In this document: positions 36,939 through 62,283 of the stretch, in pieces
Position numbering within the stretch: the stretch's first letter is position 1
Layout: each line of letters starts with the position of its first letter
Assembly: GCF_011682145.1 (NCBI RefSeq)
Contig: NZ_WHJH01000004.1
Span: 62,001-126,000, forward strand
Direction of reading: 5' to 3'
Origin: Massilia mucilaginosa
GTDB lineage: Bacteria; Pseudomonadota; Gammaproteobacteria; Burkholderiales; Burkholderiaceae_D
DNA: 64,000 nt
Translations under genes and position numbers: made by a program
Notes under the pieces: generated by a model
What the model saw: only the letters and a program-made list of their open reading frames with translations
Databases searched by the model: none
Told to the model about the DNA's origin: nothing

Positions 36939-36957
36939 TTTACCAGACCCAATCATC

Positions 36958-42474: not shown

Positions 42475-42480
42475 CATCCA

Positions 42481-42508
42481 CGGCTGGTGTCAGACCTGAC
42501 ACCAGCCG
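42481..42508. repeat. 13-bp hairpin containing the TGTCAGACCTGACA core
   Basis: CGGCTGGTGTCAG, AC, and the exact complement form a near-perfect dyad between the dehydratase and AraD1 genes. The inner 14 bases are the same dyad found in the 14.5-kb array. It may modulate message stability inside the operon. Confidence 0.7.
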
Positions 42509-42526
42509 GTGACACGGAGACACATC

Positions 42527-43519: not shown

Positions 43520-45087
43520 CCATTACCGGTGAAGCATTGATCGGCGGACACGCCGTCCGCGGCAACGGCGGCGCGTTCCAGGCTGTCGATCCATCCACCC
43601 GCGCGCCGATCGCGCCGTCCTTTTACATGGTCGACGCCGCCCAGATCGATGAAGCCTGCCGCCTGGCGGAAGCGGCTTTCGATCCGTTCCGCGCAAGCAG
43701 CAATGAAGCGCGCGCGACTTTCCTGGAAACCATCGCGGCCCAGATCCTGGAACTCGGCGACGAGCTGATCGTACGCGCAATGACCGAATCCGGCCTGCCG
43801 CGCGCCCGTCTCGAAGGCGAACGCGGCCGCACCACGGGCCAGCTGAAGCTGTTCGCGGAACTGCTGCGCGAAGGTTCGTGGGCCGACGTGCGCATCGACA
43901 GCGCCTTGCCGGAGCGCCAGCCGCTGCCGCGTCCCGACCTGCGCCTGCGCATGATTGGACTCGGCCCCGTTGCCGTGTTCGCCGCGAGTAACTTCCCGCT
44001 GGCGTTTTCGGTGGCCGGTGGCGATACCGCCGCCGCGCTGGCGGCCGGCTGCCCGGTCGTGCTGAAAGCCCATTCCGCCCATCCGGGCACCTCCGAACTG
44101 GTGGCGCGCGCCGTGCTCAAGGCGATTGAACTGTGCAAGCTGCCGGTAGGCGTGTTCGCGCTGCTGACCGGCACCGGCAACGGCATCGGCCAGAGCCTGG
44201 TGGCGCATCCGTCGATCAAGGCGGTTGGCTTTACCGGCTCGCGTTCGGGCGGACAAGCGCTGATGGCCGTGGCCGCCGCGCGTCCGCAGCCGATTCCTGT
44301 GTATGCGGAAATGAGCAGCATCAATCCGTTTTACCTGATGCCATCGGCGCTGGCCGCGCGCGGCGAGCAGATCGCGACCGCCTTTGCCGGCTCGATGACC
44401 ATGGGCGTCGGCCAGTTCTGCACCAATCCCGGCCTCGTGCTGGGTTTGAAAGGTCCGGATTTCGACCGCTTTGCCGACCAGGCGGCGCAGGCTTTGTCAA
44501 GCATCGACGCGGGGACCATGCTGACGGCGGGCATCGCTTCGGCCTATCAGAGGGGCGTGCACAAGCTGGCGCAGCACGAGGCGGTCGATTCCTTGAAGGA
44601 AGCGACGCACACGGAAGGCAAGGGCGGTCCGGCCTTGTTCCGCACCAGCGGCAAGGCGTTCCTGAGCGAACAGGCGCTGCATGGCGAGATTTTCGGACCG
44701 GCATCGCTGCTGGTCGCCTGCGACAGCGTCGAGGAAATGCGCGCCATCACGGAAGGCCTGGAAGGACAACTGACCGCGACCGTGCAGATGGACGAGGGCG
44801 ACACCGAACTGGTGCGTGCCTTGCTGCCTGTGCTGGAGCGTAAGGTTGGCCGGATCCTGGCCAATGGCATGCCGACCGGCGTGGAAGTATCGACGGCGAT
44901 GGTGCATGGCGGACCGTTTCCGGCGACGTCGGACGGGCGCAGCAGCTCGGTGGGGACGGCGGCGATCCAGCGCTTCCTGCGGCCGGTGTGCTACCAGAAC
45001 CTGGCGCAGAGTTTGCTGCCGGAAGTGCTGCGCGACGATCATGAGGGCGTGTGGCGCCGCCGGGATGGGGCGTTGACGAAGTCCTGA
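43516..45087 (+). CDS. 2-oxoglutarate-semialdehyde (2,5-dioxopentanoate) dehydrogenase
   Basis: The 523-residue protein starts at an ATG overlapping the AraD1 stop (ATGA). It belongs to the long ALDH group with ASNFPLAFSVAGGDTAAALAAG in the cofactor region, base E265 (YAEMSS) and nucleophile C302 (GQFCTNPG), typical of 2,5-dioxovalerate dehydrogenases (KGSADH type III-like). It oxidises 2-oxoglutarate semialdehyde to 2-oxoglutarate with NAD(P)+, the last step of the oxidative pentose route, feeding the TCA cycle. Confidence 0.93.
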   Translation: MTITGEALIGGHAVRGNGGAFQAVDPSTRAPIAPSFYMVDAAQIDEACRLAEAAFDPFRASSNEARATFLETIAAQILELGDELIVRAMTESGLPRARLEGERGRTTGQLKLFAELLREGSWADVRIDSALPERQPLPRPDLRLRMIGLGPVAVFAASNFPLAFSVAGGDTAAALAAGCPVVLKAHSAHPGTSELVARAVLKAIELCKLPVGVFALLTGTGNGIGQSLVAHPSIKAVGFTGSRSGGQALMAVAAARPQPIPVYAEMSSINPFYLMPSALAARGEQIATAFAGSMTMGVGQFCTNPGLVLGLKGPDFDRFADQAAQALSSIDAGTMLTAGIASAYQRGVHKLAQHEAVDSLKEATHTEGKGGPALFRTSGKAFLSEQALHGEIFGPASLLVACDSVEEMRAITEGLEGQLTATVQMDEGDTELVRALLPVLERKVGRILANGMPTGVEVSTAMVHGGPFPATSDGRSSSVGTAAIQRFLRPVCYQNLAQSLLPEVLRDDHEGVWRRRDGALTKS

Positions 45088-45108
45088 ATCGCCGCAGCTA
45101 CTAAAGGT

Positions 45109-45150
45109 CCGTCGTCCCCGCCGAGGGCCGCCTTGGCGCGGGGACGACGG
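45109..45150. repeat. CCGTCGTCCCCG hairpin in the arabinose operon
   Basis: A perfect 12-bp stem with an 18-base loop lies between the semialdehyde dehydrogenase and SDR genes. It is related to the hairpin at 11187-11227 (shared GTCGTCCCCG arm). It has no T-run. Confidence 0.6.
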
Positions 45151-45171
45151 CGGAAAAACGTTGGAGACACC

Positions 45172-45939
45172 ATGAAAAAATCAGCCACCTACCCGAGCCT
45201 GTCAGGCAAACGGGTATTCATCACCGGCGGCGGCACTGGCATCGGCGAGTCGCTGGTCGCCTCGTTCGCCGCCCAGGGCGCCCAGGTCGCCTTCGTGGAC
45301 ATCGTGCGCGACGCCAGCGAAGCGCTGTGCCTGCGCGTCGCCGAATCCGGCGCCCCGGCACCGCTCTTCCGCCACTGCGACATCACCGACATCCCCGCCC
45401 TGCAAGCGACCATGGCCGACCTGGCCGCGCAGCTGGGCGACTTCGACATCCTGGTCAACAACGCCGCCAACGACCAGCGCCACCAGACCGAAGACGTCAG
45501 TGTCGAATTCTACGACCAGCGCATCGCCATCAACCAGCGCCCCATGTTCTTCACCTGCCAGTCGGTCCTCGCCGGCATGAAGAAGAAGGGCCTTGGCTCC
45601 ATCATCAATGTCGGCTCCATGTCGTGGCACGCCAAGAACGGCGGCTACCCGGTCTACACCGCCACCAAGGCGGCCACGGTCGGCCTGACCCGCGGCCTGG
45701 CGCGCGACTTCGGCGCCCACGGCATCCGCGTCAACACCGTCACGCCCGGCTGGGTCATGACCGCCCGCCAGCTCGACCTGTGGGTCGATGAAGCCGGCAA
45801 GGCCGACATCAAGCGCAACCAGTGCCTGCCCGGTCCGCTGATGCCGGACGACATCTCGGCCATGATCCTGTTCCTCGCCTCCGACGACAGCGCCATGTGC
45901 ACCGGCCAGGATTTCGTGGTCGACGCCGGCTGGATCTGA
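45172..45939 (+). CDS. SDR sugar dehydrogenase, probable L-arabinose 1-dehydrogenase
   Basis: The ATG at 45172 follows a TGGAGA site; 255 residues. Rossmann motif TGGGTGIGES (near 15-24), NNAAND, S149 in GSMSW, and Y162/K166 in YTATK give a complete classical SDR. The early HCDITD suggests NAD binding at the adenine pocket. It resembles D-xylose and L-arabinose 1-dehydrogenases. In this operon it should oxidise L-arabinose to the lactone hydrolysed by the SMP-30 protein. Confidence 0.88.
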   Translation: MKKSATYPSLSGKRVFITGGGTGIGESLVASFAAQGAQVAFVDIVRDASEALCLRVAESGAPAPLFRHCDITDIPALQATMADLAAQLGDFDILVNNAANDQRHQTEDVSVEFYDQRIAINQRPMFFTCQSVLAGMKKKGLGSIINVGSMSWHAKNGGYPVYTATKAATVGLTRGLARDFGAHGIRVNTVTPGWVMTARQLDLWVDEAGKADIKRNQCLPGPLMPDDISAMILFLASDDSAMCTGQDFVVDAGWI

Positions 45940-45989
45940 CCCCGCTTTCCAACATAACACCCAAAACAAAAACGATTCAGGAGACAAGC

Positions 45990-47540
45990 ATGAACATCAT
46001 CCAACGCAGCATCGCCGCCATCAGCCTGCTTACCGTCAGCGCGTGGCCGGCGTTCGCCGCGGTCAACGTGACCATCGACGCCGGCAAGCCAGGCCCGGTC
46101 ATCAACAAGAACGTCTACGGCCAGTTCGCCGAGCACCTCGGCACCGGCATCTACGAAGGCATGTACGTCGGCCCAGGTTCCAAAATTCCGAACACCAAGG
46201 GCTGGCGCAACGACGTCGTCGGCGCCCTGAAGCAACTGCACGTGCCGCTGGTGCGCTGGCCGGGCGGCTGCTTCGCCGATGAATATCACTGGAAAGACGG
46301 CATTGGCCCGCGCGCCAAGCGTCCGGTCAAGGTCAATACCAACTGGGGCGGGGTGGAAGAGAGCAACGCCGTCGGCACGCACGAATTTTTCGACCTGGTC
46401 GACCTGCTGGGCGCGCACGCCTACGTCAACGGCAACCTCGGTTCCGGCACCGTGCAGGAAATGGCGGACTGGGTCGAGTACATGACCTCCGACAGCAAAT
46501 CGAGCCTGGCCAACCTGCGCCGCAAGAATGGGCGCGACAAGCCGTTCAAGGTCGCCTACTTCGCGATCGGCAACGAGGCCTGGGGTTGCGGCGGCAATAT
46601 GACGCCCGAGCACTACACCAATCTGTACAAGAATTACGAGACGATGCTCAAGGCGCCGAAGGAAAGCCGGCCCCTGATGATCGCCAGCGGCGGTAACGAT
46701 CACGACACCAAGTGGACCGATGTGATCAGCAAGAACGCCAAGGCGCAAACCTCGGCCATCAGCTTTCACTACTACACCATCCCGACCGGCAAGTGGGAAG
46801 GCAAGGGCGCAGCCACCGGTTTCGCCGAGCCGCACTGGATCTCGACCCTGGCGAATACCTTGAAAATCGATTCGATGATCAAGAACAATATCGCCGTACT
46901 GGACAAGAACGATCCCGAGAAGAAAATTGGCTTGTACGTGGATGAATGGGGCACCTGGTACGACGTGGAAACCGGCACCACGCCCGGCTTCCTGTTCCAG
47001 CAGAACACCTTGCGCGATGCGGTGGTGGCCGCGCTCAACTTCAACATTTTCCACCAGCACGCCGACCGCGTTCACATGACCAATATTGCGCAGATGGTCA
47101 ATGTGCTGCAGGCCATGATTCTGACGGAAAAGGACAAGATGCTGCTGACGCCGACCTATCACGCCTTCCACATGTACGTGCCGTTCCAGGATGCGACCTC
47201 GTTGCCGCTGACGGTGGCGGACGACACGGCCTACACCTTGGGCGAGACCACGATTGTCGGCATCAGCGCGTCGGCGGCGCGGGCCAAGGATGGCAAGCTG
47301 TACCTGTCGCTGGTCAACACCAATCCGGGCAAGCCGGCGGATGTGGTGGTCAATGTGTCGGGTAAGCAGTTGGCGGCGGCGACTGGCCGCGTGCTGACGG
47401 CAACGGCAATGGACGCGCACAACACCTTCCAGAACCCGCAAGCCATCAAGCCGGCGCCGTTCAGTGCCAAGGCGAATGGCGGTAAACTGACGGTGACCGT
47501 GCCGGCGAAAGCGGTTGTGGTGGTGGCGCTGGAAGGCTGA
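45990..47540 (+). CDS. Exported GH51 alpha-L-arabinofuranosidase
   Basis: I use the ATG at 45990, 6 bases after an AGGAGA site; 516 residues. It starts with a signal peptide (SIAAISLLTVSAWPAFA). GH51 catalytic residues are E196 (GNEAWGCGG, acid/base) and E319 (YVDEWGTWYDVE, nucleophile). It removes terminal alpha-L-arabinofuranosyl groups from arabinan, arabinoxylan or oligosaccharides, in the periplasm or outside. Most bacterial GH51 enzymes are cytoplasmic, so the clear export signal is notable. Confidence 0.94.
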   Translation: MNIIQRSIAAISLLTVSAWPAFAAVNVTIDAGKPGPVINKNVYGQFAEHLGTGIYEGMYVGPGSKIPNTKGWRNDVVGALKQLHVPLVRWPGGCFADEYHWKDGIGPRAKRPVKVNTNWGGVEESNAVGTHEFFDLVDLLGAHAYVNGNLGSGTVQEMADWVEYMTSDSKSSLANLRRKNGRDKPFKVAYFAIGNEAWGCGGNMTPEHYTNLYKNYETMLKAPKESRPLMIASGGNDHDTKWTDVISKNAKAQTSAISFHYYTIPTGKWEGKGAATGFAEPHWISTLANTLKIDSMIKNNIAVLDKNDPEKKIGLYVDEWGTWYDVETGTTPGFLFQQNTLRDAVVAALNFNIFHQHADRVHMTNIAQMVNVLQAMILTEKDKMLLTPTYHAFHMYVPFQDATSLPLTVADDTAYTLGETTIVGISASAARAKDGKLYLSLVNTNPGKPADVVVNVSGKQLAAATGRVLTATAMDAHNTFQNPQAIKPAPFSAKANGGKLTVTVPAKAVVVVALEG

Positions 47541-47570
47541 TTACTGCGGACAGCGTTGCCATTCGCACCA

Positions 47571-47626
47571 CCGCCCCGTCGTCCCCGCATCTGCGTGGAG
47601 TCGTTTCCGGCAGTGCCGGAAACGAC
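47571..47626. repeat. Intergenic hairpin before the GH43 endo-arabinanase gene
   Basis: GTCGTTTCCGGCA, one base, and the exact complement form a 13-bp stem at 47600-47626. A CGTCGTCCCCGC arm like those of the other hairpins precedes it at about 47577. It may be a compound dispersed repeat. Confidence 0.6.
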
Positions 47627-47655
47627 GGTCTCGCGTTCACTTGGGAATTTTCACA

Positions 47656-48666
47656 ATGCGTTCTTTGATCCGATCGCTCGCCTGTATCGCCAGCATTTTC
47701 CTCTCCACCGCCCACGCCAAACAAGTCAGCGTCCACGACCCCGTCATGGCCAAGGAAGGCAACACCTTCTACCTGTTCAGCACCGGCCCCGGCATCACCT
47801 TCTACAGTTCGCCAGACATGCGCAACTGGAAGGAAGAAGGCCGCGTATTCCCGGGCGAACCCGCCTGGGCCAAAACAGCCGCCCCCAGCTTCAACGACCA
47901 CATCTGGGCGCCGGACATCTACTTTCACGACGGAAAATACTACCTCTACTATTCCGTCTCCGGTTTTGGTAAAAACACCTCCGGCATCGGGGTGACCACC
48001 AACGCCACCCTGAACCCGCGCGCCGCCAACTATCAATGGCAAGACCAGGGCATGGTCCTGCAATCGATCCCCGGCCGCGACAACTGGAACGCCATCGACC
48101 CCAACATCGTGGACGACAGCAGCGGCACGCCGTGGATGTCGTTCGGCTCGTTCTGGAGCGGCATCAAGCTGGTCAAGCTGGATGCCTCGCGCACCCGCCT
48201 GGCCGAGCCGCAAGCCTGGCACACCATCGCCCAACGCACGCGTCCGGCCGGCGTGCCCGAGGAAGAAGCCGGCCCGGCCGAAATCGAAGCCCCCCACATC
48301 CTCAAAAAGAATGGCTATTACTACCTGTTCGTCTCCTGGGGCCTGTGCTGCAAGAAAGAAGCGAGCACCTACCACGTGGTCATGGGCCGCTCGAAACAGG
48401 TCACCGGCCCCTACCTCGACCGCGCCGGCAAGGACATGGCCAAAGGCGGCGGCTCGCTGCTCATCGACGGCAACGCGCAGTGGAAGGGCGTCGGCCACAA
48501 CAGCGCCTACACAATCGACGGCAAGGACCTGCTGGTCATGCACGCCTACGAAACCGCCGACAACTACCTGCAAAAGCTCAAAATCCTCGACATGGCGTGG
48601 GACCAGGACGGCTGGCCCACGGTCGACCCGCAAGACCTGAACCGCTACCAGAGCAAGCAACGATAA
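47656..48666 (+). CDS. Exported GH43 endo-1,5-alpha-L-arabinanase
   Basis: The ATG at 47656 gives 336 residues with a signal peptide (SLACIASIFLSTAHA). GH43 residues are D28 (SVHDPVM), D148 (NAIDPNIVDD) and E211 (EIEAPHIL). Features such as VHDPVMAKEGNTFYLFSTGPG and WAPDIYFHDGKYYLYYS match arabinan endo-1,5-alpha-L-arabinosidases (subfamily 4/5 type). It cuts the arabinan backbone into oligosaccharides that the TonB receptors can import. Confidence 0.92.
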   Translation: MRSLIRSLACIASIFLSTAHAKQVSVHDPVMAKEGNTFYLFSTGPGITFYSSPDMRNWKEEGRVFPGEPAWAKTAAPSFNDHIWAPDIYFHDGKYYLYYSVSGFGKNTSGIGVTTNATLNPRAANYQWQDQGMVLQSIPGRDNWNAIDPNIVDDSSGTPWMSFGSFWSGIKLVKLDASRTRLAEPQAWHTIAQRTRPAGVPEEEAGPAEIEAPHILKKNGYYYLFVSWGLCCKKEASTYHVVMGRSKQVTGPYLDRAGKDMAKGGGSLLIDGNAQWKGVGHNSAYTIDGKDLLVMHAYETADNYLQKLKILDMAWDQDGWPTVDPQDLNRYQSKQR

Positions 48667-48673
48667 GGCTGTC

Positions 48674-51031
48674 ATGAAACGACACTTCCTGGCTGTCGCG
48701 CTGACGGCGGCCTGCGCGCTGCCGGCGGTCGCCGCCGAACGCTTTGCGCTGGCCGACGTGCGCCTCACCGCCAGCCCCTTCCTCGACGCCCAGAACACCA
48801 ACCTGCGCTACCTGATGGCGCTCGAGCCCGACAAGCTGCTGGCGCCATTCCAGCGCGAAGCCGGCCTCCCGCTCAAGCAGGAAAGCTATGGCAACTGGGA
48901 GTCTAGCGGCCTCGACGGTCACATGGGCGGCCATTACCTGTCGGCCATGGCGCTGATGTTTGCTGCGAGCGGCGACCAGGAAGTGCTGGGGCGCCTGAAC
49001 TACACCATCGCTGAACTCAAAAAGTGCCAGGAAGCGAACGGCAACGGCTACCTGGGCGGCATTCCCGGCGGCGCCGATGCGTGGCAGGCCGTTGCCAAAG
49101 GCAAGCTCGAAGCGGACCACTTCTCGGTCAACGGCAAGTGGGTGCCCTGGTACAACCTGCACAAGGTCTACGCCGGCTTGCGCGATGCCTATCGCTACGC
49201 CGGCAACGAGGACGCGCGCGCGATGCTGATCTCGCTGTCGGACTGGGCCTTGAAGCTCACCTCCTCGCTGACGCCCGAACAGATGCAGGCGATGCTGCGC
49301 AGCGAGCACGGCGGCATGAACGAGGCCTTCGCCGACGTCTACCAGATCACGGGCGACAAAAAATACCTGGCGCTGGCGATGCGCTTTTCGCACCAGGCCA
49401 TCCTGGAACCGCTGCTCACGTCCCAGGACAAGCTGAGCGGCCTGCATGCCAACACGCAAATTCCCAAAGTCATCGGCTTTCAGCGCATCGGCGAGCTGAG
49501 CGGGGAGCGGACATGGCACGATGCCGCGCAGTATTTCTGGACCACGGTGCGCGAACGGCGCACGGTCGCCATCGGCGGCAACAGCGTCAAGGAGCACTTC
49601 CACGACGATCAGGACTTTTCGCCGATGGTGAACGAGGTTGAGGGCCCCGAGACCTGCAACACCTACAACATGCTGCGCCTGACGGACCTGCTGTTCCTCA
49701 GGGACCAGCAGGTGCGCTATGCCGATTACGTGGAGCGCGCGCTGTACAACCACATCCTGTCGTCGCAGCGCCCGCTTGATGGCGGCTTTGTGTACTTCAC
49801 GCCGATGCGGCCGAACCATTACCGCGTGTATTCGCAGGCCGACAAGGCGATGTGGTGCTGCGTCGGCTCGGGCATCGAGAGCCAGTCGAAATATGGCGAA
49901 TTCATCTACGCGCACGATGGCGACGCGCTGTTCGTGAATCTGTTCATCCCGTCCACCCTGCACTGGCGCGCGCAGGACGTGAAGCTGAGCCAGACAACCG
50001 GCTTTCCGGACGAAGGCAAGACGCGCCTGAGAATCGAATCGGACAAGGCATTCACGCTCAAGCTGCGCTATCCGGGCTGGGTCAGGCGCGGGGCGCTGCA
50101 GCTCAGGGTCAACGGCAAGCCGGTCAAGGTCGATGGCGAGCCGGGCGCGTACGTGAGCCTGCGGCGCGCATGGCGCAAGGGCGATACGGTCGATGTCACC
50201 TTGCCGATGCACACCACGCTGGAGCAGATGCCGGACAAGAGCGACTATTACGCGGTCCTGCACGGGCCGATCGTGCTGGCGGCCAAGACACAGTTGTTCG
50301 CGGATGAAAAGCTGAACTTTGCCGCCAATGCCACACGCATGGGGCATATTGCATCCGGGCCAGTGTGCCCGCTGGAGGCGGCGCCGGTTTTTGTGAGCAA
50401 TACGCGCGACTTCGTGGCGCGCTTCAAGCCGGTCAAGGGACTGCCGCTGACCTTCACGGCGCCCGGGCTGATCCAGGGGAAGGGTGCCGGGAGCCTGCGG
50501 CTGATGCCGTTCTTCCGCCTGCACGATGCGCGCTACATGGTGTACTGGCCGTATTCGACGCCGGCCAACCTGGCGCTCACGCAGGCGGCCACCGCCAGGG
50601 GCGAGGCGGAGCGGCTGGCCTTGACTGCGCTGACCATCGACCAGGTGGCGCCGGGCGAGCAGCAGCCGGAGTCCGATCATGGCTACCAGGCTGAAGGCGG
50701 CGATGCCGGGGTGAACAAGGGCAAGCACTGGCGCCATGCGAGCGGGTGGTTCAGTTATGTGCTCAGCGATGCCAAGCTGGAGGCGGTGGTGCTCAGGCTC
50801 AGTTTCTCGACCCTGGATGCGGGGCGCAAGTTCGATGTGGTGGTCAATGGCGAGACGATTGCGGCCGTGCAGCTCGATGCGCCGGCGGGACCGGAGGTGT
50901 ACACGCGCGATATCGCGATTCCCGCCGCAATCGCGGCGGGGTCGGCGGGCAAGCTCACCGTGAAGTTTGTTGCCAAACCGGGTTCGTTGGCGGGCGGATT
51001 ATATGGATTACGCTTGTTGCGAGCCGGTTGA
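48674..51031 (+). CDS. Exported GH127 beta-L-arabinofuranosidase
   Basis: The 785-residue protein has a signal peptide (FLAVALTAACALPAVAA). GH127 (DUF1680) features include the zinc/catalytic set E326 and C328 (PETCNTYNML) and C395-C396 (MWCCVGSGIESQ), where one cysteine acts as nucleophile, plus GGHYLSAMA and WYNLHKVYAGL. It splits beta-L-arabinofuranosyl links such as those on hydroxyproline-rich plant glycoproteins. It extends the locus to both anomeric types of arabinofuranoside. It lies 7 bases after the GH43 gene. Confidence 0.94.
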   Translation: MKRHFLAVALTAACALPAVAAERFALADVRLTASPFLDAQNTNLRYLMALEPDKLLAPFQREAGLPLKQESYGNWESSGLDGHMGGHYLSAMALMFAASGDQEVLGRLNYTIAELKKCQEANGNGYLGGIPGGADAWQAVAKGKLEADHFSVNGKWVPWYNLHKVYAGLRDAYRYAGNEDARAMLISLSDWALKLTSSLTPEQMQAMLRSEHGGMNEAFADVYQITGDKKYLALAMRFSHQAILEPLLTSQDKLSGLHANTQIPKVIGFQRIGELSGERTWHDAAQYFWTTVRERRTVAIGGNSVKEHFHDDQDFSPMVNEVEGPETCNTYNMLRLTDLLFLRDQQVRYADYVERALYNHILSSQRPLDGGFVYFTPMRPNHYRVYSQADKAMWCCVGSGIESQSKYGEFIYAHDGDALFVNLFIPSTLHWRAQDVKLSQTTGFPDEGKTRLRIESDKAFTLKLRYPGWVRRGALQLRVNGKPVKVDGEPGAYVSLRRAWRKGDTVDVTLPMHTTLEQMPDKSDYYAVLHGPIVLAAKTQLFADEKLNFAANATRMGHIASGPVCPLEAAPVFVSNTRDFVARFKPVKGLPLTFTAPGLIQGKGAGSLRLMPFFRLHDARYMVYWPYSTPANLALTQAATARGEAERLALTALTIDQVAPGEQQPESDHGYQAEGGDAGVNKGKHWRHASGWFSYVLSDAKLEAVVLRLSFSTLDAGRKFDVVVNGETIAAVQLDAPAGPEVYTRDIAIPAAIAAGSAGKLTVKFVAKPGSLAGGLYGLRLLRAG

Positions 51032-52066: not shown

Positions 52067-52134
52067 CGATACCCATTTTGGTATCGCATCCATCAAAAAA
52101 TTGATTGGATGGCTATGTGACTTTCTCATAAGAT
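52067..52134 (+). promoter_or_regulatory. LysR-type operator and promoter of the furanose ABC operon
   Basis: The perfect dyad CGATACC-N6-GGTATCG (52067-52086), 15 bases, TGATTGGA (52102-52109) with -35 TTGGAT (52105-52110), an 18-base spacer, and -10 TAAGAT (52129-52134). It is the best copy of the four-fold module. Confidence 0.82.
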
Positions 52135-52186: not shown

Positions 52187-53155
52187 ATGAACACCACCCG
52201 CAGGGCCGTTCTGGCCACCGCATTGCTTGGCGCTTTCACCGCTTTCACCGCTTTTCCCGCTTTGGCCGCCAAACCGCTGACCATCGGCTTTTCCCAGGTC
52301 GGCGCCGAAAGCGAATGGCGCACCGCCAACACCATCTCGATCAAGGAGGCCGCCAAGAAGGAAGGCGTCAACCTCAAGTTCGCCGACGCCCAGCAGCGCC
52401 AGGAAAACCAGGTCAAGGCGATCCGCTCCTTCATCGCCCAGCGGGTTGACGTGATCGCGTTCTCGCCCGTGGTCGAATCCGGCTGGGAAACCGTGCTGCG
52501 CGAAGCCAAAGCCGCCAAGATTCCGGTCATCCTCACCGATCGTGCCGTCAACGTGACCGATACGTCGCTATATGCCGCTTTCATCGGCTCCGACTTCGTC
52601 GAAGAAGGCCGCCGCGCCGCCCGCTGGCTGGTCGAACGCGCCGCCAAAACCCCTGATCGCACGTTCAACATCGTCGAACTGCAGGGAACCGTCGGCTCCG
52701 CACCCGCCATCGACCGCAAGAACGGCTTTGCCGAAGTTATCGCCGGCAATCCCAAGCTGAAGATCACCCGTTCCCAGACCGGCGACTTTACCCGCGCCAA
52801 GGGCAAGGAAGTGATGGAAGCCTTCCTCAAGGCACAGGGCAAGGATATCCATGTGCTCTACGCACACAACGACGACATGGCCATCGGCGCCATCCAGGCC
52901 ATCGAAGAAGCCGGACTGAAACCGGGCGTCGATATCCTGGTGATCTCGATTGACGGCGTCAAAGGCGCGTTCCAGGCCATGATCGCCGGCAAGATGAACG
53001 TCACGGTCGAGTGCAGCCCGCTGCTCGGGCCGCAGCTGATGTCGATCGCACGCGATGTCGTCGCCGGCAAGCCGGTGCCGAAGCGCATCACGACGGTCGA
53101 GGGCGTGTTCCCGGCTGAAGTGGCTGCCAAGGAACTGCCGAACCGCAAATACTAG
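52187..53155 (+). CDS. ytfQ: Periplasmic furanose-binding protein, YtfQ-like
   Basis: The 322-residue protein has a signal peptide (ATALLGAFTAFTAFPALAA) and the sugar-binding type 1 fold of ribose/galactofuranose binders: TIGFSQVGAESEWRTAN, DVIAFSPVVESGWE, LYAHNDDMAIGAIQAIEEAG and ISIDGVKGA. In E. coli YtfQ binds galactofuranose and also arabinose furanose forms. Here L-arabinofuranose is the likely ligand. It is followed by an ATPase and two permease genes. Confidence 0.92.
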   Translation: MNTTRRAVLATALLGAFTAFTAFPALAAKPLTIGFSQVGAESEWRTANTISIKEAAKKEGVNLKFADAQQRQENQVKAIRSFIAQRVDVIAFSPVVESGWETVLREAKAAKIPVILTDRAVNVTDTSLYAAFIGSDFVEEGRRAARWLVERAAKTPDRTFNIVELQGTVGSAPAIDRKNGFAEVIAGNPKLKITRSQTGDFTRAKGKEVMEAFLKAQGKDIHVLYAHNDDMAIGAIQAIEEAGLKPGVDILVISIDGVKGAFQAMIAGKMNVTVECSPLLGPQLMSIARDVVAGKPVPKRITTVEGVFPAEVAAKELPNRKY

Positions 53156-53163
53156 GCCTTGCC

Positions 53164-54690
53164 ATGATCAAGGCACCGAACGCCGCCGCTCCGGTGCTGG
53201 GGCTGCACGGCATCAGCAAGCAATTTCCCGGCGTGAAGGCGCTCAGCGATGTGGGCCTGGCACTGTACGCCGGGGAAGTCCACACCTTGATGGGCCAGAA
53301 CGGCGCCGGCAAGTCCACCTTGATCAAGGTGCTGACCGGCGTGTACGCGCCCGACAGCGGCAGCATCGTCATGGAAGGGCGGGAAATCCGCCCCGGCTCG
53401 ACCCAGGATGCGCAGCGCCTGGGCATCAGCACGGTGTATCAGGAAGTGAACCTGTGCCCGAACCTGTCGGTGGCCGAGAATATTTTCATCGGCCGCTATC
53501 CGCGCAAGTTCGGCATGGTCGACTGGCGCGGCATGCGCGCGCAGGCAAGCAAGCTGCTGGAACAGCTGGAAGTGCGCATCGACGTGCGCGCCCAGTTGTC
53601 CAGCTTTCCGCTGGCGATCCAGCAGATGGTGGCGATTTCGCGCGCGCTCAATATTTCGGCACGCGTGCTCATTCTGGACGAGCCGACCTCCAGCCTCGAC
53701 GAGGCCGAAGTCCAGCTGCTGTTCCGCGTGCTGCGCAAACTGCGCGACCAGGGCATGGCGATCCTGTTCGTGACCCATTTCCTGGACCAGACCTACGCGA
53801 TTTCGGACCGCATCACCGTCATGCGCAACGGCGAGCGCGAGGGCGAGTATGCCTGCGCCGAGCTGTCGCGCCTGGCGCTGGTGAACAAGATGGTCGGTGC
53901 GCCCGATGCCAGCGAGCATCCGGCCGACCTGGTGCATCCGGGCGCCGCGAGGGAAGCGCCAGCCGTCCTGCTGCAAGCGCGTGGCCTGGGACGCAAGGGC
54001 GCGCTGGCGCCGCTCGACCTCGACATCCGCGCCGGCGACATGCTGGGCCTGTGCGGACTGCTCGGATCGGGCCGCACCGAGCTGGCGCGCCTGCTGTTCG
54101 GGGCCGACAAGGCCGACAGCGGCACCTTGCGCATCGGCGAACGCAGCCACCCCTTCGGTTCGCCGCGCGACGCCATCGAGGCCGGTATAGGATTTTGCTC
54201 CGAAGACCGCAAGCACGAAGGCGCCATCCTCGAACTGTCGGTGCGCGAGAACATGATCCTGGCCTTGCAGGCACGCGCCGGCATGTTGCGCGCGATCCCC
54301 TTGCGCCAGCAGCAGGCGCTGGCGCAGGACTATGTAAAGTGGCTGGGCATCAAGACGGCCGATATCGAGACACCGATTGGTTCGCTGTCGGGCGGCAACC
54401 AGCAGAAAGTGCTGCTGGCGCGCTGGCTGGTGACCAAGCCGGCGATGCTGATCCTCGACGAACCAACGCGCGGCATCGACGTGCGCGCCAAACAGGAAAT
54501 CATGGATTACGTTAGCGGACTTTGTCGTAAAGGGATGGCAATTCTGTTCATCTCCTCCGAACTCCCGGAAGTTCTGCGCTGTAGCGACCGGCTGGTCGTC
54601 ATGCGCGACCGCAAGGCCTGCGGCGAATACCAGCGCGGCGAACTGGACGACACCTCGGTGCTGCAAGTGATCGCCGGAGAAGCGGCATGA
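53164..54690 (+). CDS. ytfR: Sugar ABC transporter ATPase, YtfR-like
   Basis: The 508-residue protein is a fused double ATPase of the carbohydrate uptake type 2 family. The first half has Walker A GQNGAGKST and ILDEPTSSLDEAE; the second has a degenerate P-loop (GLLGSGRTE), the signature LSGGNQQK and LDEPTRGIDVRAK. Such asymmetry is normal in this family. It powers import by the two permeases encoded after it. Its stop overlaps the next start (ATGA). Confidence 0.94.
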   Translation: MIKAPNAAAPVLGLHGISKQFPGVKALSDVGLALYAGEVHTLMGQNGAGKSTLIKVLTGVYAPDSGSIVMEGREIRPGSTQDAQRLGISTVYQEVNLCPNLSVAENIFIGRYPRKFGMVDWRGMRAQASKLLEQLEVRIDVRAQLSSFPLAIQQMVAISRALNISARVLILDEPTSSLDEAEVQLLFRVLRKLRDQGMAILFVTHFLDQTYAISDRITVMRNGEREGEYACAELSRLALVNKMVGAPDASEHPADLVHPGAAREAPAVLLQARGLGRKGALAPLDLDIRAGDMLGLCGLLGSGRTELARLLFGADKADSGTLRIGERSHPFGSPRDAIEAGIGFCSEDRKHEGAILELSVRENMILALQARAGMLRAIPLRQQQALAQDYVKWLGIKTADIETPIGSLSGGNQQKVLLARWLVTKPAMLILDEPTRGIDVRAKQEIMDYVSGLCRKGMAILFISSELPEVLRCSDRLVVMRDRKACGEYQRGELDDTSVLQVIAGEAA

Positions 54691-55730
54691 TGGCCTCGCC
54701 GGCCCGGGCCGCCGTGAAACAAGACGCCACGCCTTTGATGGGGGCGCTGGCGCGCCATCCGCTGTTCCGTCCGCTGGCAGCCCTGGCGGTGCTGCTGCTG
54801 ATCGACCTGGTCGCCATTCCTGGCTTCTTCCACATTTCCATCAAGGACGGCCACCTGTACGGCAGCCTGATCGACATCATCAACCGCGCCGCCCCGCTGA
54901 TGCTGGCCGCGCTCGGCATGACCCTGGTGATCGCCACGCGCGGCATCGATATTTCGGTCGGCGCGGTGGTGGCGCTGTCGGGCACGGTGGCGGCCATGCT
55001 GATCGGCGGTGGCCCGCAAGCGGAAACACCGCTGGTGTGGGCACTGGCGGCGGCCATGGGCGCCGCGCTTCTGTGCGGGCTGTGGAACGGGGTGCTGGTC
55101 TCAGCGCTGGGCTTGCAGCCGATCGTCGCCACCCTGATCCTGATGGTGGCGGGCAGGGGACTGGCGCAGTTGCTCACCGACGGACAGATCGTCACGGTCT
55201 ACTACGAACCGTTCTTCTTCCTCGGCGGCGGCTACTTTGCCGGCCTGCCGTTTTCGCTCACGGTGGTGGCGCTGGTGTTCGCGGTCATCGCGCTGATGAT
55301 GCGCAAAACCGCGCTCGGCCTGTTCATCCAGGCGGTCGGCATCAACCCGGTGGCGGCGCGCCTGGCGGGCCTGAAAACCGCCTCGCTGATCATTTTCGTG
55401 TACGTGTTCTGCGCCGCCTGCGCCGGCCTCGCCGGGCTGATGATCAGTTCCAACATCAAAAGCGCGGACGCCAACAACGCCGGCCTGCTGCTCGAACTCG
55501 ACGCCATCCTGGCCGTGACCCTGGGCGGCACCTCGCTCGCCGGCGGCAAATTCAGCCTGGTCGGCAGCGTGATCGGCGCGCTCATCATCCAGACCCTGAC
55601 CTACACCATCTACTCGCTCGGCGTGCCGCCGGAAGTGAACATGGTGGTCAAGTCGGTGGTCGTGTTCCTCGTCTGCCTGTCGCAATCGGCGGAATTCAAA
55701 CAATTGTTTTCGCGTGCGAGGACTGCATGA
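54687..55730 (+). CDS. ytfT: Sugar ABC transporter permease, YtfT-like
   Basis: The 347-residue inner-membrane protein has about ten hydrophobic segments and the BPD_transp_2 pattern (LVIATRGIDISVGAVVALSG; later LDAILAVTLGGTSLAGG). It overlaps ytfR by four bases and yjfF by four bases (ATGA), a tight operon. It forms a heterodimeric channel with the YjfF-like partner. Confidence 0.92.
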   Translation: MMASPARAAVKQDATPLMGALARHPLFRPLAALAVLLLIDLVAIPGFFHISIKDGHLYGSLIDIINRAAPLMLAALGMTLVIATRGIDISVGAVVALSGTVAAMLIGGGPQAETPLVWALAAAMGAALLCGLWNGVLVSALGLQPIVATLILMVAGRGLAQLLTDGQIVTVYYEPFFFLGGGYFAGLPFSLTVVALVFAVIALMMRKTALGLFIQAVGINPVAARLAGLKTASLIIFVYVFCAACAGLAGLMISSNIKSADANNAGLLLELDAILAVTLGGTSLAGGKFSLVGSVIGALIIQTLTYTIYSLGVPPEVNMVVKSVVVFLVCLSQSAEFKQLFSRARTA

Positions 55731-56689
55731 AATCGCCTTACTTTACCCCGCTGGTCACGGTCGTCCTGCTGCTGGCCATGCTCGGCATCGGCGGGGCCGT
55801 GTATCCGGGCCTGCTGTCGGTGCAGGTGATCCTGAACTTGTTGATCGATAACGCCTTCCTGCTGGTGCTGGCGATCGGCATGAGTTTTGTGATTTTGTCC
55901 GGCGGCATCGACCTGTCGGTCGGCTCGGTGCTGGCGCTGGCCACCATGATCTCGGCCTGGCTGCTGCAGGTGGCGCACTGGCCGCCGCTGGCGGTGATCG
56001 CTGTCGTGCTGCTGCTGGGCGCGCTGTTCGGCGGCGGCATGGGCGCCATGATTCATTACTTCAAGCTGCAACCCTTCATCGTCACCCTGGCCGGCATGTT
56101 CCTGGCGCGCGGCCTGTGCTACCTGATCAGCATTAACTCGATCACCATCGAAGACCCGCTGTACCTGGCCATGTCGCAAACCCAGCTCGGCTTTCTGGGC
56201 GGCTTTGTGTCGCCCAGCGCGCTCATTGCACTGCTGATGCTGGGGCTGGCGATTTTCCTGGCCCACTTCACCGCCTTCGGGCGCGGCGTGTATGCCATCG
56301 GCGGCAACGAGCAGTCGGCCCTGATGATGGGCTTGCCGGTGGCGCGCACCAAGGTGCTGGTGTACGCCTTCAGCGGCTTTTGCGCGGCCCTGGCGGGGGT
56401 GCTGTTTTCGTTCTACATGCTGTCGGGCTACGGCCTGCATGCGCAGGGCACCGAGCTGGACGCCATTGCGGCGGTGGTGATCGGCGGCACCTTGCTTAGC
56501 GGCGGCTATGGCTATGTGGCTGGCGCGCTGTCCGGCGTGCTGGTGCTGGGCACGATCCAGACCCTGATCGCCTTCGACGGCACGCTCAGCTCGTGGTGGA
56601 CCAGGATTGTCATCGGCGCCTTGCTGTTCATCTTCTGCGTGGTCCAGCGCCTGATGGCCATGGGCGCGGCACGGCGCGCTGCGGCCTGA
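55727..56689 (+). CDS. yjfF: Sugar ABC transporter permease, YjfF-like
   Basis: The 320-residue permease has the same family signature (VILSGGIDLSVGSVLALATM; TELDAIAAVVIGGTLLSGG). It starts in the ATGA overlap with ytfT. Together YtfQ, YtfR, YtfT and YjfF make a complete pentofuranose importer. Its last codon and stop form the first unit of a 15-bp tandem repeat. Confidence 0.92.
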   Translation: MKSPYFTPLVTVVLLLAMLGIGGAVYPGLLSVQVILNLLIDNAFLLVLAIGMSFVILSGGIDLSVGSVLALATMISAWLLQVAHWPPLAVIAVVLLLGALFGGGMGAMIHYFKLQPFIVTLAGMFLARGLCYLISINSITIEDPLYLAMSQTQLGFLGGFVSPSALIALLMLGLAIFLAHFTAFGRGVYAIGGNEQSALMMGLPVARTKVLVYAFSGFCAALAGVLFSFYMLSGYGLHAQGTELDAIAAVVIGGTLLSGGYGYVAGALSGVLVLGTIQTLIAFDGTLSSWWTRIVIGALLFIFCVVQRLMAMGAARRAAA

Positions 56690-56764
56690 CGCGGCGCGGC
56701 CTGACGCGGCGCGGACTGACGCGGCCCGGCCTGACGCGGCCCGGCCTGACGCGGCCCGGCCTGA
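56685..56764 (+). repeat. 15-bp tandem repeat, five copies, across the yjfF stop codon
   Basis: Units of CCTGACGCGGCCCGG (or GCGCGG variants) begin at 56685, 56700, 56715, 56730 and 56745, with a partial sixth. The TGA of the first unit is the yjfF stop, and every unit repeats it. The repeat fills most of the gap to the GH43 gene and could change copy number by slippage. Confidence 0.9.
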
Positions 56765-56797
56765 TCTCATTCCAACTACAAGCAACAGGAGACAACA

Positions 56798-57751
56798 ATG
56801 ATCAAATACGCACTGGGCGCACTCGCGCTCGGCTTCGCCACGGGCATCGCTTGCGCCGCCAACCCCATCATCAGCAATATCTTCACGGCCGACCCGGCCG
56901 CGCTGGTCGACAAGGGCCGCGTGTACCTGTATGTCGGCCACGATGAGGCGAAACCGGACGGCAAGGATTACGTGATGAATGAATGGCGCGTGTATTCCTC
57001 GTGCGATATGAAAACCTGGAAAGAGCATGGCTCGCCGGTGCAGTTTTCCACCTTCAAATGGGCCGGGCGCGATGCCTGGGCGGCCGACATCACTGAGCGC
57101 GGCGGCAAATACTATTTCTATTCCACGGTCGAGCACAAGACGATTCCCGGCAAGGCCATTGGCGTGGCGGTGTCCGACAGCCCGACCGGCCCCTTCTTGG
57201 ACGCGCGCGGCAGCGCCTTGGTCAGCAACGACATGACCCGTCACATCGATATTTTGTGGGACGACATCGACCCGGGCGTCTTCGTCGATACCGATGGCCA
57301 GGCCTGGCTGTACTGGGGCAACACGGTTCTCAAGTACGCCAAACTCAAGGCCAATATGACCGAACTGGACGGCCCGATCATGACGCACGCGATCGATTCG
57401 TTCACCGAAGCCCCGTACGTGCACAAGCGCGGCGCCACCTACTACATGTCGTATTCGCGTTACTTCCCCGAAGAGATGGTGTACGCCACCAGCGCCAGCC
57501 CGGCCGGCCCGTGGACCTTCAAGGGCGTGATCATGGACAAGAACGAGAAGGTCAAGACCATTCACCAGGCCATCATCGACTTCAACGGCAAGTCCTACGT
57601 GTTCTATCACAACGCCAAATTGCCGGGCGGCGGAGAATTCCGCCGTTCGGTGGCGGTCGAGGAATTGCATTACAAGCTCGATGGCAGCATCAAGTTCGTG
57701 CCGCAGACGGTCAGCGGGCCGGCCGCCAACCCGTCGCCGGGCTGCCAATGA
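56798..57751 (+). CDS. Exported GH43 arabinofuranosidase/xylosidase
   Basis: The 317-residue protein has a signal peptide (GALALGFATGIACA). GH43 residues appear in FTADPAALV, DIDPGVFVDTDG and FTEAPYVHKRG. It differs from the endo-arabinanase in the same locus and looks like an exo-acting alpha-L-arabinofuranosidase or beta-xylosidase. It probably trims oligosaccharides in the periplasm and is part of the ABC transporter operon. Linkage specificity cannot be told from sequence. Confidence 0.88.
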   Translation: MIKYALGALALGFATGIACAANPIISNIFTADPAALVDKGRVYLYVGHDEAKPDGKDYVMNEWRVYSSCDMKTWKEHGSPVQFSTFKWAGRDAWAADITERGGKYYFYSTVEHKTIPGKAIGVAVSDSPTGPFLDARGSALVSNDMTRHIDILWDDIDPGVFVDTDGQAWLYWGNTVLKYAKLKANMTELDGPIMTHAIDSFTEAPYVHKRGATYYMSYSRYFPEEMVYATSASPAGPWTFKGVIMDKNEKVKTIHQAIIDFNGKSYVFYHNAKLPGGGEFRRSVAVEELHYKLDGSIKFVPQTVSGPAANPSPGCQ

Positions 57752-57800
57752 TATCCAGATCGGTATGTTGCAACGCGTACCGATATCAATCAGGGGTATG
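57749..57800 (+). promoter_or_regulatory. Operator-like region before lysR
   Basis: TGATATC-N6-GGTATGT (57749-57768) resembles the four arabinose operators. It is followed by ATCGGTA-N12-TACCGAT (57759-57784) and a further CGATATC (57781-57787). The TGATTGGA element is absent. It suggests autoregulation by the LysR protein from a different geometry. Confidence 0.6.
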
Positions 57801-57805
57801 ATTCC

Positions 57806-58750
57806 ATGATGGAGACACTCAACCCCAACTGGTTTTTAAAGGCGCGCCTGAAAACGCGCCAGCTGCTGCTGCTGATCGCGCTCGACGACCACCGCAACAT
57901 CCACCGCGCCGCCGAGGCGCTGCACATGACCCAGCCGGCGGCGTCGAAACAGATCAAGGATCTGGAAGAGATGCTCGACGTCAAGCTGTTCGAGCGCCTG
58001 CCGCGCGGCATGGAGCCGACCATGTTCGGCGAAACCATGGTGCGCCACGCCCGCATGGCGCTGACCAGCCTGGCGCTTGCGCACGACGATATCGTGGCCC
58101 TGAAAGCCGGGCTGGCGGGGCAGGTCGAGGTGGGCGTGATCATGACCCCCGCCATGGCGCTGCTGCCGCGCGCGATTGCGCGCATCAAGGAGCAGGCGCC
58201 GATGCTGCGGATCGGTGCGCATGTGGAGACGAGCAATATCCTGCTCGACAAGCTGCAGCACGGCATGCTCGACTTCATGATCGGGCGCATTCTCGAAAAG
58301 GAGAATTCCGCCGGTCTCATCTACGAAGAGTTGAACGAGGAACCGGCCTGCGCGGTGGTGCGGGTGGGCCATCCATTGCTGGAAGTCGAGCAGCTCGAAC
58401 TGAAGCACATCGCCGGCCAGCCGTGGATCTTGCCGCCGCACGGCAGCATCTTGCGGCACCGCTTCGACATGATGTTCCGCCGCGCCGGGCTCGACATTCC
58501 CGTGAACGTGGTCGATACCACCGCGCTGCTGCTGATCACGGCGCTGCTGCAGCAGACCGATTCGCTGCATGTGATGCCGGTCGACGTGGCCAGGTATTAC
58601 GCCTCGCTCAATGTGCTGAGCATCCTGCCGATCGAGTTGCCCTGCAAGATGGATGCCTTCGGTATCATTCGCCAGAAAGACCATTTGCTGTCGCCGGGCG
58701 CCGAACTGCTGTTGCAGGCGGTCCGCGTGACGGCGCAGGAAATGGTTTGA
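57806..58750 (+). CDS. LysR-family regulator, GbpR-like, likely arabinose regulon controller
   Basis: The 314-residue protein has an N-terminal winged helix-turn-helix (about 18-75: IHRAAEALHMTQPAASKQIKDLE) and a ligand-binding domain with VEVGVIMTPAMALLPRAI. It resembles GbpR-type LysR regulators of sugar-binding protein genes. The gene follows the furanose ABC/GH43 operon and has operator-like sequences before it. I infer that it binds CGATAYC-N6-GRTATCR and activates the four promoters in this window, with arabinose or an intermediate as inducer. Confidence 0.9.
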   Translation: MMETLNPNWFLKARLKTRQLLLLIALDDHRNIHRAAEALHMTQPAASKQIKDLEEMLDVKLFERLPRGMEPTMFGETMVRHARMALTSLALAHDDIVALKAGLAGQVEVGVIMTPAMALLPRAIARIKEQAPMLRIGAHVETSNILLDKLQHGMLDFMIGRILEKENSAGLIYEELNEEPACAVVRVGHPLLEVEQLELKHIAGQPWILPPHGSILRHRFDMMFRRAGLDIPVNVVDTTALLLITALLQQTDSLHVMPVDVARYYASLNVLSILPIELPCKMDAFGIIRQKDHLLSPGAELLLQAVRVTAQEMV

Positions 58751-59479: not shown

Positions 59480-60619
59480 ATGACCCTGACTAAGAAAATC
59501 GGTACTCTGAGCGCAATCGGCTTCGCCATGCTGGCAGCACAAGCATCGGCACAAGACCAATTCGTGAATCCAGAGTGGGCGAACAGCGCCACCTACATTG
59601 GTGCCGGTATCGGCCAGACGCGCAGCTACACCAAAGCGGCTCCGGTCATCAAAAACCTGAACGCCCAGGGCGGGTTTGTCAATTCGTGGAGTTCCGACGA
59701 AAAAGACATGGGTTACAAATTGTTCGTTGGTAAGCAACTGAGCCGCTACTTCGCTGTGGAAGCTGGTTTCTTTGATCTGGGCAACTTCAACGTCCATACC
59801 CGTAACAACCTGGGCGGCGTTGTGAACGCTGAACAGAAGTACAAAGGCGTGAACCTGGACCTGATCGCGCAAGTGCCGATGAGCGAGCGTTTCTCGGTCT
59901 ACGGCCGTGCCGGTATGCACTACACCAAAGCAACGACCCAATTCTCGGGTAACCGCGCTGTTGGCCTGTTCGCTGGCGAATCGAGCGAGAAGAAGCTGAA
60001 CCCGAAATTCGGCGTTGGCCTGGAATACAAATTCACCGAAGCGCTGGCTCTGCGCGCCGAAGCTGAAAACTATCGCATCGACGACGCACTGCGCAGCAAC
60101 GGCAACACCAAGATGTACTCGCTGAACCTGGTCTACAAACTGGGTCGTCCGGCAGCATCGGCACCAATGCCGGCACCAGCCCCGGCGCCAATGCCGGAAG
60201 CGACGCCAGCACCGGCGCCGGCACCAATGCCAGCACCAGCACCGGCCCCAGTGCCAGTGTCGGAAAAAGTCTCGTTCGCTGCTGAAGCCCTGTTCGACTT
60301 CGACAAATCGGTTGTCAAGCCAGAAGGCAAAGCAGCTCTGGACGATCTGCTGAACAAGCTGCAAGGCATGAACACCGAAGTCATGGTCACCGTCGGCCAC
60401 ACCGATTCGGTGGGTTCCGATGCTTACAACCAGAAACTGTCGCTGCGCCGCGCTGAAGCTGTCAAAGCTTACATCGTGTCGAAAGGTGTTGAAACCTCGC
60501 GCGTCTACACCGAAGGCAAGGGCGAGACCCAGCCAGTTGCAGAAAACAACTCGGCAGAAGGCCGCGCTAAAAACCGTCGCGTGACGGTTGAAGTGGTCGG
60601 TACCCGTACTGCCAAGTAA
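59480..60619 (+). CDS. OmpA-family outer-membrane protein 1
   Basis: The 379-residue protein has a signal peptide cut after ASA (about 24), an eight-strand OmpA-type barrel (about 28-215), a Pro/Ala/Met-rich hinge (about 220-260) and a peptidoglycan-binding OmpA C-domain (FDFDKSVVKPEGK, GHTDSVGSDAYNQKLSLRRAEAV, NRRVTVEV). It anchors the outer membrane to the wall. Codon use is strongly biased toward GCT, GGT and CGT, unlike the GC-ending choices of its paralogue at 62284, which suggests a very abundant protein. A terminator follows. Confidence 0.95.
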   Translation: MTLTKKIGTLSAIGFAMLAAQASAQDQFVNPEWANSATYIGAGIGQTRSYTKAAPVIKNLNAQGGFVNSWSSDEKDMGYKLFVGKQLSRYFAVEAGFFDLGNFNVHTRNNLGGVVNAEQKYKGVNLDLIAQVPMSERFSVYGRAGMHYTKATTQFSGNRAVGLFAGESSEKKLNPKFGVGLEYKFTEALALRAEAENYRIDDALRSNGNTKMYSLNLVYKLGRPAASAPMPAPAPAPMPEATPAPAPAPMPAPAPAPVPVSEKVSFAAEALFDFDKSVVKPEGKAALDDLLNKLQGMNTEVMVTVGHTDSVGSDAYNQKLSLRRAEAVKAYIVSKGVETSRVYTEGKGETQPVAENNSAEGRAKNRRVTVEVVGTRTAK

Positions 60620-60633
60620 TCCTTCGCTTCACT

Positions 60634-60671
60634 AAAAAGCCGCCGCGCCCCTTGGGGCCGGCGGCTTTTTT
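60634..60671 (+). terminator. Intrinsic terminator after OmpA 1
   Basis: AAAAAGCCGCC...CCCC-TT-GGGG...GGCGGCTTTTTT forms a long GC stem with a six-T tail, 15 bases after the stop codon. Confidence 0.9.
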
Positions 60672-60819
60672 GCATTTTCGGTCGAAAGTGTTGTTGGAGT
60701 AATGAAAATTCTCCATTTAAAAATTCTACGTACGGTTCCGCACGGAGTGGAGAGTGGCAACAGGCAATAGTGAAGGACGTTGCCGTTGTCCGGCCACAAG
60801 CTCACCCGAAGGAATCATA

Positions 60820-62253: not shown

Positions 62254-62283
62254 GCCGGCCTTCCATTTTTCCGAAAGAACATC

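Follow-up and report, generated by a model that had tools for sequence, protein, structure and literature searches.

A recurrent promoter module of arabinose-use genes in Massilia mucilaginosa and its probable activation by a LysR-type regulator

Four similar stretches of DNA precede sugar-use genes in a 64,000-nucleotide piece of the Massilia mucilaginosa genome (the whole stretch analysed, hereafter the window), which raises the question of whether they constitute one regulatory device and which protein acts on it. The sequence-only reading of the window had regarded them as operator-promoter modules of an L-arabinose regulon that is probably controlled by a LysR-type activator. Sequence comparison indicates that the four-promoter switch is real and well supported, and its mechanism appears conventional. 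We consider the module to be a promoter in its entirety, serving an L-arabinose (pectic arabinan) regulon whose activator would be the LysR-type protein of the gene at 57806; the probability assigned to this reading is about 0.9.

Such a switch would give the use of plant-derived arabinose a regulator, an operator and a regulon that can be tested, in a large family of bacteria that live in soil and the rhizosphere. It would link TonB receptors and secreted enzymes lacking an assigned substrate to arabinan, and offer a compact arabinose-responsive promoter beyond AraC control. Protein and site co-vary tightly from genus to genus, which also makes the system a good case for spacing reading by LysR proteins and for DNA bending.

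Anatomy and rarity of the module

Direct reading and a script both showed that each of the four modules (Table 1) consists of a 20-base dyad block, 15 bases, TGATTGGA and TTGGAN-N18-TANNAT. The fixed spacing described by the sequence-only reading, 15 bases after the dyad and 18 bases between TTGGAN and TANNAT, was confirmed at all four sites, together with its A-rich tract, found as a run of at least five A ahead of TGATTGGA in every module. The shared consensus CGATAYC-N6-GRTATCR stood only in part: the dyad block and its spacing occur at all four promoters, but CGATAYC fails at 32711, where a weaker left half begins with TCATATC. Compared with the 20-base operator as first described, the 32711 site carries two mismatches when read on the plus strand and one on the other strand; compared with the core GATAYC-N6-GRTATC-N16-TGATTGG, it carries one.

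Numbered from the first G of GATAYC, the core comprises the operator (positions 1-18), a 16-base gap containing the A-run at about 28-32, TGATTGG (35-41), TTGGAN (38-43), 18 bases and TANNAT (62-67). Among 42 non-redundant instances, pre-selected for at least four A at positions 27-33, positions 28-33 were 74-98% A. Columns free of this selection were also conserved, namely A42 and T47-A48-T49 (74, 64, 79 and 81%), AAA at 8-10 in the dyad core, TA at 62-63 and AT at 66-67. From TTGGAN to TA...T the spacer measured 18 bases in 31 of 34 non-redundant modules. When the distance from operator to TGATTGG was varied over 6-26 bases in 79 related loci, 57 matches fell at 16 and 0-6 at any other value. 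The AT-rich dyad core is separated from the A-tract by about 21 bases, equal to two helical turns. With a transcription start assumed about 7 bases past the -10 box, the first dyad would lie near -65, the A-tract near -45 and a second dyad, GAT-N9-ATC, near -32; since this second dyad is partly set by the selected TGATTGG, only half of it counts as independent. Sequence and conservation are consistent with a LysR-type layout, that is, a dyad near -65 with a second site over the -35 region.

Table 1. Positions of the modules, operator-like sites and genes (window positions unless a contig handle is given; PWM, weight-matrix score)
Feature	Position	Strand	Remarks
ytfQ module	52067-52134	+	Read directly from sequence
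Operator IR1 of ytfQ promoter, GATACC-N6-GGTATC	52068-52085	+	Module PWM 76.6, training-set member
A-tract between the two putative binding sites, ytfQ promoter	52095-52100	+	Sequence; column profile
Putative second site ABS/IR2, GAT-N9-ATC-like, here GAT-N9-ATG	52103-52117	+	Inferred; overlaps -35 box
ytfQ promoter, TTGGAT-N18-TAAGAT	52105-52134	+	Sequence; upstream of ytfQ (52187-53155)
Module of arabonate dehydratase operon	40604-40670 (20-base block from 40603)	+	Operator 40604-40621; -10 TAGTAT 40665-40670; PWM 77.9, training-set member
Module of TonB receptor 2/GPH symporter/GH43/mutarotase/SGL operon	32712-32778 (block from 32711)	+	PWM 66.7, training-set member
Module of TonB receptor 1 and the aldehyde dehydrogenase behind it	11108-11174 (block from 11175)	-	PWM 49.4, training-set member
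Weaker module outside the window (L253)	G000:C390:17461 (host genome)		2 mismatches; before secreted GH43 with ricin-type lectin domains; PWM 36.8
Weaker module outside the window (L254)	G000:C222:227880 (host genome)		3 mismatches; before pectate lyase; PWM 24.9
Operator-like GATATCCAGATCGGTATG, GATATC-N6-GGTATG, upstream of lysR	57750-57767	+	1 mismatch to GATAYC-N6-GRTATC; overlaps GH43 gene end
Second operator-like repeat, GATATC-N7-GGTATG	57782-57802	+	Runs into TATGAT just before lysR start; proposed autoregulatory site
LysR-type regulator proposed for the modules	57806-58750	+	Second ATG at 57809; PF00126 and PF03466
Transporter operon: ytfQ-like, ytfR-like, two permeases, GH43	52187-57751	+	Domain/family matches
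L-arabonate dehydratase-like, AraD1/GguC, aldehyde dehydrogenase, SDR	40696-45939	+	Family matches
Alpha-L-arabinofuranosidase (PF06964), GH43, GH127 beta-L-arabinofuranosidase-like	45822-51031	+	Domain matches
TonB receptor 2, GPH symporter, GH43, mutarotase, SGL lactonase-like	32841-39854	+	Domain/family matches
TonB receptor 1 (8423-11062) and alpha-ketoglutaric-semialdehyde-dehydrogenase-like (6826-8256)	6826-11062	-	Latter: best model 516 vs cut-off 770

The sequence-only reading had also suggested scanning the genome with the composite pattern, and the host assembly of 7,702,761 bases (7.70 Mb, 416 contigs) was searched accordingly. At up to three mismatches the window yielded 4 matches against 0.02 expected, a number reached by 0 of 100 dinucleotide shuffles. 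The whole genome yielded 13 matches, and the three exact ones plus one with a single mismatch are the four window modules; the other nine carry two or three mismatches, and the reversed pattern matched once. No random spread was found, as modules with 0-1 mismatch occur at only four places in 7.7 Mb, all within the arabinose region. In a refined scan that demanded AAA and allowed TSATTNG, the four modules were recovered at 0 mismatches along with two degenerate sites (2 and 3 mismatches), and the reversed control also gave two matches. With the weight matrix, the four modules on which it was trained score 49-78, the next match in the window scores -1.1 and the highest score among 20 shuffled windows is -7.4. 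Chance as the source of the four modules is ruled out by the shuffles, the genome-wide rarity and the sharp gap of 16.

Four similar 67-base stretches within one region might also be explained by recent copying of a mobile or duplicated promoter cassette, with no selected design behind them. However, the bases between the conserved positions vary freely among the four window modules, while the same positions are kept across independent promoters and genera. The copied cassette was rejected on both counts, and its probability is considered virtually nil.

Genes behind the modules and reach of the regulon

The genes that follow the modules form, according to their family matches, a set by which L-arabinose from arabinan would be taken up and broken down oxidatively. 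The assignment to the L-arabinose regulon claimed in the sequence-only reading fits this content, which includes L-arabonate dehydratase-like, AraD1, lactonase-like, ytfQ/ytfR-like, GH43, arabinofuranosidase and GH127 genes; the pathway itself is assigned from gene families and general knowledge. The AraD1 match exceeds its curated cut-off, the L-arabinonate dehydratase model reaches 830 against a cut-off of 882, the YtfQ and YtfR models score under their curated NCBIfam cut-offs, and the SDR and aldehyde dehydrogenase names are likewise best matches beneath theirs. For the dehydratase gene, the ATG at 40735 seems the likelier start, judging from the AGGAGG ahead of that codon. The immediate upstream neighbour of the TonB receptor 1 promoter is a pullulanase-type gene (11243-14389, minus strand) of the same orientation, with the module between them.

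Two weaker modules (L253 and L254 in Table 1), both outside the training data of the weight matrix, were found elsewhere in the host genome. Since the reversed control of the scan also gave two matches, they rest mainly on their downstream genes, their matrix scores and the corresponding sites carried by GH43 and pectate-lyase-kind genes in the close relatives G148 and G138 (domains checked for the G148 pair). The host regulon probably comprises six sites rather than four, reaching the secreted GH43 and the pectate lyase.

In eight genomes of the same genus, the modules whose locus was retrieved stand before the dehydratase, TonB receptor 2, ytfQ, GH43-like and pectate-lyase genes and one unidentified gene (L244), and a module precedes TonB receptor 1 in five of the eight (G111, with a partial match to this receptor, G138, G148, G181 and G192). 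In relatives generally, the genes after the module are mostly those for the dehydratase, TonB receptors 2 and 1, ytfQ, aldehyde dehydrogenase and GH43. Other genera displayed further targets: chvE and dgoK in Janthinobacterium LM6 (L165:6326 and L165:16247), chvE in genus g28 (L166 exceeds the ChvE cut-off), genes with a similar leader peptide in genus g14, and in genus g26 a weakly porin-like gene, with the module 58 bases from lysR (67%). Three genomes of genus g28 contain two tandem modules 137 bases apart (G153:C1:1751853/1751990, G061:C26:237104/236967 and G175:C30:189551/189688); those of G153 stand upstream of chvE, as if serial promoters shared one control.

The modules before chvE and dgoK imply that the regulon is not strictly one for L-arabinose everywhere. 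L-arabinose and D-galactose have a common configuration, which makes a broader sugar response plausible. It can be asked on these grounds whether D-galactose or D-fucose is the effector, and defines the regulon, as much as L-arabinose, so that the term arabinose regulon would be too narrow. A precedent is GbpR of Agrobacterium, likened here by description, a LysR protein that according to excerpts of PMC4086400 regulates chvE in the presence of sugars. In contrast to the chvE of GbpR, the host transporter under the module is of the ytfQ type, and TonB receptors and glycosidases are included. All six host sites precede genes consistent with the use of arabinose, arabinan or pectin, although the substrates of the TonB receptors are only presumed, and a regulon equally devoted to D-galactose or D-fucose is judged unlikely, if still worth attention.

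Co-occurrence of the module with a LysR-type regulator

The protein encoded at 57806 exceeds the cut-offs of both PF00126 (HTH_1, 73.6 bits) and PF03466 (LysR_substrate, 106.2 bits), and a search of solved structures returned general LysR relatives only (best E 4.8e-19). Its distribution was compared with that of the module over 195 genomes of the family, in which the ortholog (E <= 1e-90) is present in 70 and a refined module (AAA demanded, TSATTGG, at most two mismatches) in 72; counts tabulated for the reversed pattern were 0. Both occur together in 69 genomes, the LysR ortholog alone in one (G094), a module-like match alone in three (G002, G019 and G132) and neither in 122, corresponding to a Fisher p of 6e-48 when shared ancestry is ignored. 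The refined pattern had been shaped on matches of an earlier, looser pattern in the same 195 genomes, blind to the presence of LysR. That looser pattern matched 116 genomes, comprising 69 of the 70 with the ortholog and 47 of the 125 without it, and many of its matches in ortholog-free genomes look like chance matches in coding sequence. The two features also vary together within genera: both are present in four and absent from eight of 12 g18 genomes, and present in two and absent from three of five g4 genomes. The 13 g1 genomes comprise nine with both, G094 and three with neither, and the ten g32 genomes comprise three with both, G132 and six with neither.

The module also adjoins the regulator gene. 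From named genomes, 79 distinct loci were collected (the best 80 of 87 relatives being retained), and the stretch around lysR contains a module with at most two mismatches in 56 of them (57 matches; reversed control 0 of 79). By weight matrix, which many of these loci had fed, 73 of the 79 score at least 20, with a second match at that level in five. The expected promoter is cut off in four of the remaining six (L071, L098, L102 and L103), L093 is a short contig on which lysR alone was matched, and L094 is unexplained; this last locus encodes an 81%-identical LysR, and its 13.6 kb showed neither a match to ytfQ or the dehydratase nor a convincing module. In Massilia and Janthinobacterium, lysR mostly follows the ytfQ-ytfR-permease genes, usually with GH43 in between, and the module stands at ytfQ.

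A different arrangement was observed in distant relatives, which provide the most stringent test of the LysR link. With a matrix trained without those loci (44 instances after redundancy removal) and applied to about 350 bases before lysR, the best match in 13 of 13 loci (L108-L119 and L121) fell between lysR and its divergent neighbour and was aimed away from lysR. These loci belong to Polaromonas, Burkholderia, Paraburkholderia, Pseudoxanthomonas and unclassified Burkholderiales, with LysR identities of 49-59%, and include near-duplicates, which reduces the number of independent lineages to about five or six. Each locus outscores all 200 of its dinucleotide shuffles, the 16-base gap is retained despite letter drift, and the divergent neighbour, where identified, encodes arabonate dehydratase, aldehyde dehydrogenase or AraD1. 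Divergence of lysR from its target operon was found in L108-L119, L121 and L167, among others, whereas the host lysR follows GH43. The matrix scan detected no module at lysR in L101 and L103 (74-77% LysR identity), in which lysR lies apart from its target; L101 has a match of 26.3 at ytfQ. Orthologs outside the order are rare (2 of 368 other genomes of the class at E <= 1e-75, giving three loci). L204 fits (21.0), and the matches at L205 (-3.0) and L206 (7.7, opposite direction) are not convincing; all three exceed their own shuffles. Taken with the distribution over the family, the divergent adjacency in distant genera supports the LysR protein at 57806 as the probable regulator, the role for which it had been singled out from the sequence alone.

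A LysR paralogue (L168, G000:C111:34941-35846 of the host genome, 42% identical) is encoded beside dgoA/dgoK-like genes and an ABC transporter; this related protein is probably another sugar regulator, with a site of its own. It could be supposed that another protein, notably this paralogue, binds the module, leaving the LysR protein at 57806 as a bystander, considering their relatedness, a look-alike element in the upstream region of the paralogue gene (one base off, by eye) and the dgoK and chvE modules of Janthinobacterium LM6. However, the paralogue occurs in 28 of the 195 genomes (E <= 1e-90), with G065, G069, G107, G113 and G171 having neither LysR ortholog nor refined module, and it is missing at that threshold from 46 of the 69 genomes with both. 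Moreover, in distant genera it is the LysR ortholog itself that modules adjoin. Because its distribution does not follow that of the module, the paralogue was rejected as the regulator, and control by a protein other than the LysR at 57806 is regarded as very improbable.

The sequence-only reading had mentioned a similar site before lysR, and GATATCCAGATCGGTATG was indeed located there. Of 58 non-redundant loci with at least 75% identity, 41 have an operator-like site with at most two mismatches within 90 bases before lysR (reversed pattern 1 of 58). Thirty-eight of these 41 sites lie at -22 to -24, mostly as GATATC-N6-GATATG/T, and a few bases ahead of the start codon their right half passes into TATGAT or TATTAT. 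In the window the repeat at 57782 has N7 and therefore falls outside the counted sites, the counted one being at -56. If the TATGAT/TATTAT box is a -10 element, lysR would yield a leaderless transcript, whose synthesis the operator would block. Autorepression of lysR through an operator over its -10-like box is accordingly proposed as probable from these sequences.

Proposed mechanism and related systems

LysR proteins usually activate from about -65. A LysR dimer is supposed to occupy the GATAYC-N6-GRTATC dyad near -65 as its tight site (IR1/RBS), and the second dimer of the tetramer would touch a weaker dyad, approximately GATTGGA-N4-TATC, over the -35 box (IR2/ABS). A bend of the DNA between the two sites may be eased or preset by the A-tract near -45, which lies two helical turns away from the AT-rich core of the first dyad. 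The inducer is presumably L-arabinose or a close derivative; once it is bound, the tetramer is expected to shift, relaxing the bend and engaging RNA polymerase at a promoter that is poor by itself (TTGGAN, 18-base spacer, TANNAT). This picture of the usual tetramer activation with an inducer-relaxed bend is inferred from the match between the module and the LysR promoter layout given in excerpts of PMC5002191, in which a strong IR1 and a weak IR2 are bound cooperatively with inducer, AT-rich DNA is required for flexibility and hypersensitivity appears near -50.

The overlap of the putative second site with the -35 box, by which an occupied promoter could be blocked, together with the apparent cover of the -10-like box of lysR itself, might instead point to a LysR protein that acts on the module mainly as a repressor released by sugar. 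Against this, the TTGGAN -35 box is poor and the main dyad lies near -65, the usual activating position and in line with the layout of the PMC5002191 excerpts, so that a repressor seems improbable and activation remains the favoured mode.

The module resembles the canonical LysR promoter in its tight dyad near -65, weak dyad over -35 and AT-rich linker near -45. It differs in that IR1 is GAT-N12-ATC (T-N12-A) instead of the textbook T-N11-A and that the linker is a strict A-tract. A wider claim, that a single LysR protein commands the whole pectic-arabinan programme of the Oxalobacteraceae through an unusually rigid promoter and that the system recurs in other Burkholderiales and in Pseudoxanthomonas, seems evenly poised between right and wrong when taken as a whole. 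The programme would embrace a secreted pectate lyase and GH43, TonB receptors, arabinosidases, ABC uptake and oxidative catabolism. The promoter would combine the T-N12-A dyad, a phased A-tract, a second dyad shorter by three bases on the -35 box and an 18-base spacer, and a possibly leaderless lysR would be shut by an operator fused to its -10 box.

Among known regulators, PcaQ of Sinorhizobium and Agrobacterium also belongs to the LysR family, and TIGR02424 is the best NCBIfam match of the 57806 protein. The score of 182.6 bits against an equivalog cut-off of 303.8 led to rejection of the protein as PcaQ itself, and its presumed targets are arabinose-type, not protocatechuate genes. The PcaQ skeleton ATA-N10-TAT (excerpts of PMC5002191) is also contained in the first dyad of the module, which compared with PcaQ has GATAYC arms with an N6 core and a position of -65 counted from an inferred start. 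PcaQ is reported to be autorepressed, according to parts of PMC12285266. For Halomonas, excerpts of PMC5507952 describe AraR, a LysR-family protein predicted to control the oxidative L-arabinose pathway, with araR divergent from its operon. The AraR regulon has another transporter set and a second regulator of the GntR family in those excerpts, and the likeness is one of description. The open-licence PMC matches listed contained no description of this motif or regulator in Massilia, Janthinobacterium or Oxalobacteraceae.

Two further neighbourhoods were noticed in other parts of the window. Two adjoining cyanophycin-synthetase-like proteins (PF18921 with ATP-grasp, one with Mur-ligase domains) are encoded at 16976-21837 on the minus strand, and at 59480-63426 on the plus strand an ice-binding-like protein with Ig-like domains (60754-62253) is flanked by two OmpA-type proteins.
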